A stretch of DNA of 64,000 nucleotides from Nitrobacteraceae bacterium AZCC 1564 (lineage in GTDB: Bacteria; Pseudomonadota; Alphaproteobacteria; Rhizobiales; Xanthobacteraceae): NCBI GenBank assembly GCA_036924835.1, contig JBAGRR010000001.1, forward strand, positions 434,001 through 498,000, written 5' to 3'. Position 1 is the first letter of the stretch; every line of letters begins with the position of its first letter. The notes beneath the pieces were generated by a model. That model saw nothing but the letters and a program-made list of their open reading frames with translations. It was not told where the DNA came from and ran no database searches. Shown here piece by piece: positions 40,538-41,819 of the stretch. The translations under genes were made by a program, and so were the position numbers.

Positions 40538-41596
40538 TTACGGAAACATCGGTGGCTGATCGATCCCCATCGTCTCTGGCAACCCGAGCACCAGATTCAT
40601 GTTCTGAACCGCTTGGCCAGACGCTCCCTTGGTCAGATTGTCGAGCGTCGAGATAATGATTGCTCGCCCCGGCATGCGGTCGGCGGTCACCCCGATGAAC
40701 GTCATGTTCGACCCGCGCACATGCCGCGACTGCGGCATCTTGCCAAACGGCAACACGTAAACGAACGGCTCCTTCTCGTACTGCTTGACCAGGATGTCAT
40801 GCAGATCCTGAGCAATCTTGCCTCTCCGTCCCCGCACGTAGATCGTTGCAAAAATGCCCCGGTTCATTGGCGTCAGATGCGGGGTGAAGGAGACCAAAAC
40901 CTCTTTGCCCGCAGCCTTGGAGAATTCCTGATCGAGTTCGGCCATGTGCCGGTGCTGCCCCACGCCATAGGCGTGGAAGCCTTCCGACACTTCCGAAAAT
41001 AGCATCTCTTCCTTTGCCGAACGCCCCGCGCCGGTCATGCCTGACTTCGCGTCAATGACAATCTCGTCGGGCTCGATGGCTTTCGCCTTCAAGAGAGGGA
41101 CGAGCGGCAGTTGTGCCGTGGTCGTATAGCAGCCCGGATTAGCAACCAGCCGCGCCTTCTTGATGTCGCGCCGATAGACTTCCACGAGCCCGTAGACGGC
41201 TTCCTTTTGCAATTCGAGAGCGTGGTGTTCGTGACCGTACCACTTCGCATAAGCCGCCGGATCACTCAGCCGGAAGTCGGCCGACAAATCGACGACCTTG
41301 GTCTCCGGCGCTTTCGCCATCAGATCTTTGAGAACCTTCTGCGTCGTCGCATGCGGTAGCGCGCAGAACACCAGATCGAGGCCTGCCTGGCTCCAATCGA
41401 CTTCATCGATCGTGACGAGCCGCGGGAGGTCATAAGGAGCGAATTGCGGAAACACGTCGCCCATCATTTGCCCTGCCCGTCTGTCGGCGGTGAGCAAAAC
41501 GATTTCCACGCGAGGGTGACGCAGCAACAGCCGAACCAGTTCAGCGCCGGTATAACCTGAGGCACCGAGGATGCCGATTTTCTTCTTCTCAGCCAT
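40538..41596 (-). CDS. argC: N-acetyl-gamma-glutamyl-phosphate reductase
   Basis: A 352-residue type 1 ArgC, NADPH-dependent reduction of N-acetylglutamyl phosphate to the semialdehyde, step 3 of arginine synthesis. The nucleotide-binding GILGASGYTGAELVRLL is at residues 8-24. The catalytic Cys is in ANPGCYTTT, and the substrate-binding HRHMAEL follows. GMTGAGRSAKEE is conserved. AAGGAC precedes the start. A 234-nt leader between the MBL gene and argC holds a promoter, a 24-codon ORF with four Arg codons in a row, and a terminator-like hairpin, so arginine control by attenuation is likely. No other arg gene is adjacent. Confidence 0.97.
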   Translation of the reverse strand: MAEKKKIGILGASGYTGAELVRLLLRHPRVEIVLLTADRRAGQMMGDVFPQFAPYDLPRLVTIDEVDWSQAGLDLVFCALPHATTQKVLKDLMAKAPETKVVDLSADFRLSDPAAYAKWYGHEHHALELQKEAVYGLVEVYRRDIKKARLVANPGCYTTTAQLPLVPLLKAKAIEPDEIVIDAKSGMTGAGRSAKEEMLFSEVSEGFHAYGVGQHRHMAELDQEFSKAAGKEVLVSFTPHLTPMNRGIFATIYVRGRRGKIAQDLHDILVKQYEKEPFVYVLPFGKMPQSRHVRGSNMTFIGVTADRMPGRAIIISTLDNLTKGASGQAVQNMNLVLGLPETMGIDQPPMFP

Positions 41597-41660
41597 GACG
41601 TGTCCTTACCCAAGCAAGTTCAAAATGAACGCTACCGGAGCAGGTCTTGCGGCAAGTTTT

Positions 41661-41700
41661 GACGAGAAACAAGATGCCGCGGACCATTTCCGGCGGCATC
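41661..41700 (-). terminator. Candidate attenuator terminator in the argC leader
   Basis: On the minus strand GATGCCGC pairs with GCGGCATC, continued by GGA/TCC past a single bulged base, with a 5-nt loop (stem 41673-41700). It is followed by TTGTTTCTCGTC, a moderate T-tract. It begins 8 nt after the stop of the arginine-rich leader ORF and lies about 75 nt before the argC start. Confidence 0.6.
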
Positions 41701-41783
41701 GGCGATGATCAGACGCGATCAACCGCCCATACCGCGGTAATGCGGCGGCGGCGATTCAAGATAATGGTGCTGGCGCTGTTCAT
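41673..41783 (-). promoter_or_regulatory. Candidate arginine attenuator of argC
   Basis: Elements in order on the minus strand: leader ORF start (41783), four CGC codons (41753-41742), a GGCGG segment (41727-41723), the leader stop (41711-41709), then the terminator hairpin whose 5' arm includes CCGCC (41696-41692). GGCGG can pair with CCGCC, which would break the terminator. A ribosome stalled at the CGC run would leave GGCGG free (antitermination). One that reaches the stop would cover it (termination). The layout is that of classical amino-acid attenuators; the assignment is inference. Confidence 0.6.
41709..41783 (-). CDS. Arginine-rich leader peptide of argC
   Basis: A 24-residue ORF beginning MNSASTIILN, then four consecutive Arg residues (all CGC), then ITAVWAV and a fifth Arg near the end, stop TGA. 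The ATG lies 7 nt beyond the -10 hexamer TATATC of a near-consensus promoter, so its A is the most probable first base of the transcript. The mRNA would be leaderless, with no ribosome binding site. Leaderless leader peptides are known for alphaproteobacterial trp attenuators. The four-codon run before a terminator and a biosynthetic gene for the same amino acid is the reason for this call. GC-rich CGC runs can arise by chance, so conservation in relatives is the deciding test. Confidence 0.6.
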   Translation of the reverse strand: MNSASTIILNRRRRITAVWAVDRV

Positions 41784-41790
41784 GGGCGCG

Positions 41791-41819
41791 GATATAGGTC
41801 CGCGCCCATTATCCGTCAA
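41791..41819 (-). promoter_or_regulatory. Strong candidate promoter for the argC leader
   Basis: TTGACG (41819-41814) and TATATC (41796-41791) are separated by exactly 17 nt. The -35 begins 11 nt after the MBL hydrolase stop. A perfect 11-bp inverted repeat (ATGGGCGCGGA at 41782-41792, TCCGCGCCCAT at 41799-41809) covers the -10 and the leader start codon. Confidence 0.7.

Follow-up and report, generated by a model that had tools for sequence, protein, structure and literature searches.

A conserved Arg-codon leader upstream of argC as a probable leaderless transcription attenuator in Nitrobacteraceae bacterium AZCC 1564 and its relatives

Introduction

The argC gene of Nitrobacteraceae bacterium AZCC 1564 is preceded by a short leader that very probably acts as a leaderless, ribosome-mediated transcription attenuator of argC, sensing charged tRNA-Arg. 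The leader lies on the minus strand of the window, by which we mean the whole analyzed stretch of 64,000 nucleotides (contig JBAGRR010000001.1, positions 434,001 to 498,000), and it has two anatomical elements of the attenuator class, namely an ORF with Arg codons 5' of argC and a pair of mutually exclusive hairpins. Neither Rfam nor the literature searched describes an Arg-codon attenuator before argC. The finding bears on the control of arginine synthesis in soil and nitrogen-fixing bacteria without ArgR, such as Bradyrhizobium, Afipia, and Rhodopseudomonas, for which the leader offers a specific and testable mechanism.

Anatomy of the leader

A first-pass annotation of the window had proposed a layout of promoter, short ORF, four CGC codons, TGA stop, hairpin, and argC, and this layout was confirmed on the minus strand (Table 1).

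Table 1. Features of the argC leader in the window
Feature	Position	Strand	Description and basis
-35 box	41814..41819	-	TTGACG; sequence; 17-nt spacer in 119/123 leaders
-10 box	41791..41796	-	TATATC; 7 nt 5' of the leader ATG; predicted start site is the A of the ATG or adjoining
Leader ORF	41709..41783	-	24 codons, MNSASTIILNRRRRITAVWAVDRV; ATG 41783-41781, TGA ends at 41709; present in 54/70 argC upstream regions
Control codons, also RNA strand 1	41742..41753	-	CGC x4 (Arg 11-14); Arg run under purifying selection
Strand 2, antiterminator 5' arm	41717..41737	-	CCGCGGTATGGGCGGTTGATC; folding; coevolution with strand 3
Strand 3, antiterminator 3' arm and terminator 5' arm	41690..41710	-	GATCATCGCCGATGCCGCCGG; folding, coevolution, covariation
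Terminator-like hairpin, strands 3:4	41673..41700	-	GATGCCGCCGGAAATGGTCCGCGGCATC; -17.0 kcal/mol; folding, pair covariation
Tail	41661..41673	-	CTTGTTTCTCGTC; pyrimidine-rich, moderately T-rich; sequence, T count
Strand 5	41631..41655	-	TTGCCGCAAGACCTGCTCCGGTAGC; complementary to the entire terminator hairpin; own-versus-foreign duplex test
argC, regulated gene	40538..41596	-	Type 1 N-acetyl-gamma-glutamyl-phosphate reductase, ATG at 41596; ORF, Pfam semialdehyde dehydrogenase domains, orthologue searches

These features vary little among the 123 leaders compared. The -10 box stands 6-9 nt from the ATG in 122 of them, an SD-like motif precedes the leader ATG in just two, and the ORF is 23-25 codons long in 113, with a longest Arg run of four codons in 89 leaders and of three in 23. 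The run is written almost exclusively in CGC and CGT (461/463 codons; CGC 402, CGT 59, CGG 2) and avoids CGG, CGA, AGA, and AGG. Scarce codons, on which the first-pass annotation had based the stalling, are therefore not its make-up: CGC is the commonest Arg codon in the long ORFs of the window (49%, against 18% for CGG and 16% for CGT), and the scarce species would instead be charged tRNA-Arg. The leader stop codon lies 7-14 nt 5' of the strand-3 TGCCGC in 109 of 114 leaders, which, judged from general ribosome dimensions, would place the strand-3 arm at the footprint edge of a terminating ribosome.

The hairpin has a strong stem, followed by a tail that is T-enriched yet weak in the window's family; its mean of 4.4 T per 10 nt, against a background of 2.2, agrees with the earlier caveat that the T-tract is only moderate. 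Leaders of Rhodopseudomonas carry no U-tract, and it is weak in several others, while two other families, f20 and f52, have T6-T8. Consensus scans for promoters and terminators detected none at the leader, because the loop limit of 8 excludes the hairpin and the -10 region is GC-rich.

Candidate antiterminator and terminator

Strand 3 can pair with strand 2 as an antiterminator or with strand 4 as a terminator. The antiterminator joins GCGGTAT (41735-41729) to ATGCCGC (41699-41693) and continues with the pairing of GGCGGTTGATC and GATCATCGCC; folding of the window leader gives it -29.3 kcal/mol versus -17.0 kcal/mol for the terminator. A short antiterminator of 5 bp, GGCGG with CCGCC, had been suggested before; this complementarity exists, but folding and coevolution back the other register, with a helix of ~20 bp.

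When each strand was tested against its own and foreign partners, duplex energies gave z -8.1 for strands 2:3 and z -5.6 for strands 3:4. In the dereplicated set, strands 2:3 stood at z -6.2 and their reversed control at -3.2, which indicates that part of the raw 2:3 value is shared composition; the permutation tests make no correction for relatedness, and values of z -3.2 to -3.6 occur in reversed controls. Base pairing is found in 87.4% of the cells of the antiterminator, compared with 35-58% in slid controls, with both sides changed in six of ten pairs, and in 89.7% of the cells of the terminator. One position of strand 3, column 23, shows covariation across three strands: its pairs with strand 2 are C-G, U-A, and G-C, and those with strand 4 are G-C, A-U, and C-G. 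Antiterminator and terminator are mutually exclusive, and both coevolve. A further pairing of strands 1:2, i.e., of the Arg run with GCGG...GGCGG, was rejected as it shows no coevolution (z 0.2), a result of little weight because both strands are nearly invariant. The minimum free energy of the whole leader is not unusually low (z -1.38, not significant), a score of little use here because an RNA with two alternative folds should not be judged by the stability of one sequence.

The position of the ribosome was modeled by folding with the occupied nucleotides masked, an equilibrium model that ignores kinetics. Over 112 leaders the median terminator probability was 0.10 when the A site held the first Arg codon and 0.98 when it held the stop codon, and 71 of the 112 made a full switch, crossing 0.5 both ways. 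For the window's own leader, the terminator probability was 0.09-0.17 with the ribosome stalled at Arg 11-13, 0.98 at Arg 14, and 0.90 at the stop codon. In the model without a ribosome the terminator is favored in the family mean and the antiterminator in the window's own leader.

Might the alternative structures act chiefly on translation, by hiding or exposing the Shine-Dalgarno site of the next gene? The weak or missing U-tracts would be in keeping with such a mode, as would the CTCCT/AGGAG hairpin that strand 5 adjoins in loci of the PaiB type (described below). However, the predicted accessibility of the Shine-Dalgarno site is unchanged by ribosome position (0.33, 0.31, 0.31; 56 leaders), no anti-SD arm is seen before argC in the window, and the tail that follows the hairpin exceeds background in T and reaches T6-T8 in two other families, so that we hold control at the level of translation to be most unlikely.

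Constraint on codons and peptide

Synonymous fractions, computed between leaders that are at least 80% identical, differ along the ORF. Codons 2-10 are near-neutral (0.30 versus 0.26 expected under neutrality), the Arg run exceeds its neutral value (0.57 versus 0.32), and codons 15-24 fall below theirs (0.16 versus 0.27). The Arg residues are preserved as amino acids and the C-terminal half is preserved as nucleotides, that is, as RNA. This pattern fits stalling on uncharged tRNA and disfavors a sequence-specific arrest peptide.

Separate leaderless leaders with Arg codons, ending in U-rich terminators, occur in two further families. In f20, such an ORF is present in all four genomes read (MFSTVTTRRRRILIQR, MITAATSTRRRILIQR, MSPAFTRSRRSIFIQR, MNTLSTWTRRRHLTLR), and a terminator with a tract of 6-8 T lies between it and argC; in f52, represented by one genome, MTTSCSIRRDTCRRPRGAR and a T6 tract precede a type-2 argC. 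In the mask model two of these leaders (L118, L170) switch and three (L110, L111, L169) keep the terminator, three of the four f20 leaders being without a switch. Beyond the Arg run they share little with the leaders of the window's family. A further regex match in the upstream regions, the end of rpsI (ERKKYG..RRSFQFSKR), is ribosomal protein S9 by sequence and was discarded.

These comparisons bear on the proposal that the leader peptide itself arrests the ribosome on sensing arginine or ornithine, like the fungal arginine attenuator peptide (AAP) or SpeFL. A basic run could contact the exit tunnel, and the C-terminal half gives the appearance of a conserved peptide (AVWA..). Against this, that half is constrained as RNA, the N-terminal codons drift near-neutrally, the leaders of other families have hardly anything but the Arg run in common with it, and the peptide conservation beyond the Arg run that marks nascent-chain arrest leaders of the AAP and SpeFL type was not found. 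Peptide arrest is thus very improbable, and we retain stalling on uncharged tRNA-Arg as the preferred reading.

A fifth strand downstream of the terminator

Strand 5 (41655-41631) lies 3' of the terminator and is complementary to all of it, arm, loop, and arm, with a mean duplex energy of -31.6 kcal/mol. In the own-versus-foreign duplex test it reached z -11.8 over 97 leaders and, over 51 dereplicated leaders, z -9.7, with -3.6 for the reversed control and +1.4 and +2.0 for unrelated-segment controls; within the window's Afipia subgroup alone (8 leaders) there was no coevolution signal (z 0.4). The position is unusual for an attenuator strand. Since strand 5 is made only once the polymerase has passed the terminator, its expected site of action is the read-through mRNA, and it raises the new question of an attenuator's fate after read-through.

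Complementarity between strand 5 of the mRNA and the terminator of the released RNA could also be taken to mean that the leader RNA released on termination, perhaps together with the peptide, is mainly a trans-acting sRNA with cis attenuation as a secondary role. The architecture is that of Sinorhizobium rnTrpL, which is likewise leaderless and an attenuator RNA and also acts in trans (PMC7298713). Yet the strand-5 site and the terminator share one transcript, so that cis pairing should prevail, and the leader is essentially single copy and adjoins argC, which leaves very little room for a mainly trans-acting RNA compared with attenuation in cis.

Conservation and association with ArgC

ArgC was located in 189 of the 199 genomes of the window's family, and 70 argC upstream regions of the family were read. 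The leader is present in 54 of them. It occurs in Afipia, Bradyrhizobium, and relatives, and the test proposed in the first-pass annotation, conservation of the ORF and Arg run together with covariation in both hairpins, came out in favor of the leader. A covariance model (R1) has a match in 110 of the family's 199 genomes, which represent 31 of its 47 genera. In the genome of origin it has a single match, the window leader itself; weak second matches away from argC (E 0.0015-0.008) in three other genomes (G059, G115, G123) were treated as chance. No R1 match was found outside the family in genomes sampled from the rest of the order and from the class, and the diverged leaders of other families were recovered solely via argC upstream regions. 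Several genera that lack the leader (L057-L062) show a conserved promoter-like motif, CTTTCG...GGTGTA, ~100 nt 5' of argC.

Eight promoter-pattern matches in the genome of origin include no further leaderless Arg leader. One TTGAC/TAT promoter pattern in that genome (L090, G000:C1:3662781-3662820, minus strand) ends a few nucleotides before the ATG of a carA-like gene, and carA, which likewise belongs to the arginine pathway, may on this sequence be leaderless too.

Many relatives have argC in second place, behind a PaiB-like FMN_bind_2 gene (PF04299; L004-L009, L072-L083, and others) that is absent in the window and appears degraded in Rhodopseudomonas (L028) and in L034. If the leader controls transcription it is expected before the PaiB-like gene, and this is where it was found, ~855 nt 5' of argC. 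Genomes of the Bradyrhizobium type have the leader, the PaiB-like gene, and then type-2 ArgC, a distant enzyme. The first-pass annotation named argC as the controlled gene; this scope is too narrow, as the leader serves entire operons and type-2 argC as well. Some Bradyrhizobium loci (L184, L185, L191, L209, and others) carry type-1-like and type-2 argC in tandem behind one leader, which gives the impression of one enzyme taking the place of the other.

A pattern scan for strands 2-4 alone, in which argC was not used, covered 84,980 species genomes and returned 115 stretches, 80 of which were read. Leader loci, with the leader present or cut at its edge, made up 72 of these; argC is in view in 60, in nine the stretch ends with only the PaiB-like gene in view, and three are cut before any gene. 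The remaining eight matches, from Streptomyces, an archaeon, and other organisms, lack a leader and are due to chance. One contig in a Streptomyces sp. AcH 505 record (L254, NZ_JTIY01000017) carries both the leader and an argC of 82% identity and is probably a contaminating alphaproteobacterium in the assembly.

The leader before argC is not a chance occurrence, and it follows the enzymatic step, ArgC function, rather than a particular gene or gene order. The association is unusually clean in that it persists through a change of gene order and through the swap to type-2 argC. That the locus is no more than a conserved promoter of the ordinary kind, followed by a fortuitous ORF and a GC-rich hairpin and not subject to regulation, is scarcely credible. 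GC-rich genomes do yield hairpins and CGC-rich frames cheaply, but here ORF length and run position are fixed, the leader heads the operon in any gene order, one position covaries across three strands, and the Arg run is under selection at the amino-acid level.

Absence of ArgR and the proposed mechanism

The ArgR domain PF01316 was found in none of the 199 family genomes, the genome of origin included, while nine of 14 control genomes were positive; PF02863 likewise had no match in the genome of origin. Because ArgR is missing, the attenuator is probably the main arginine control of the ArgC step.

Conservation and covariation support the earlier reading of the leader in terms of stalling and antitermination, which on present sequence evidence would proceed as follows. 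Transcription is predicted to begin at the A of the leader ATG or next to it, and a ribosome would start there without a Shine-Dalgarno sequence. When Arg-tRNA is ample, the ribosome would reach the stop codon and cover strand 2; with the stop ~10 nt 5' of the terminator arm, the geometry leaves strands 3:4 to pair, upon which RNA polymerase would leave the template. When Arg-tRNA is short, the ribosome would stall at the CGC run and free strand 2 for strand 3, a pairing that coevolution indicates; with strands 2:3 paired no terminator would form, and argC would be transcribed in response to the shortage.

More tentatively, a five-strand arginine attenuator could replace ArgR across a large part of the Hyphomicrobiales, with the pairing of strand 5 and the terminator adding a layer of control after the decision, for which refolding, processing of the long duplex, and titration of released leader RNA are candidate modes; we regard this wider reading as possible rather than probable.

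Comparison with known systems

Rfam contains no covariance model that matches the leader even at E values up to 10, nor any that matches eight related loci. Neither there nor in the searched literature was an argC attenuator found, in line with the initial impression that no such mechanism is standard for argC; most subscription papers lay outside the search, so that novelty is unproven.

Ribosome-mediated amino-acid attenuators are known for the trp, his, ilv, leu, thr, and phe operons, and were reportedly studied by Vitreschak et al. in 2004. The argC leader shares with the classical attenuators a short ORF with codons for the product of the pathway, an exclusive choice between antiterminator and terminator, and a biosynthetic gene 3' of them; it differs in its amino acid, arginine, in its gene, argC, in its predicted leaderless start, and in the fifth strand 3' of the terminator. 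With the ArgR repressor of E. coli and Bacillus it would share pathway and signal, but ArgR is absent from the entire family (199/199 genomes).

Individual leaders come close in single traits. The uORFC-8-2 motif before cysS in Rhodobacterales is likewise an alphaproteobacterial uORF with tandem cognate codons 5' of a gene, but these are two Cys codons before a tRNA synthetase gene in another order (PMC8632094). Arginine codons reportedly matter in the leader ORF of Salmonella speF, which precedes an ornithine decarboxylase (polyamine) gene of gammaproteobacteria and not argC (PMC6386406). A leaderless start is in itself no rarity, as leaderless mRNAs are common in the class Alphaproteobacteria (PMC4117421; PMC4842269).

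By analogy of mechanism, the argC leader would most closely resemble the leaderless trp attenuator of Sinorhizobium meliloti, rnTrpL/peTrpL, whose RNA starts at the AUG of the leader ORF (PMC7298713; PMC10117765). Both are alphaproteobacterial and stand before an operon without transcriptional repression, and both would begin at the leader AUG, a start that is mapped for rnTrpL and predicted for the argC leader. They differ in their control codons (Arg versus Trp), in the gene that follows (argC versus trpE), and in the length of the peptide (24 versus 14 aa).
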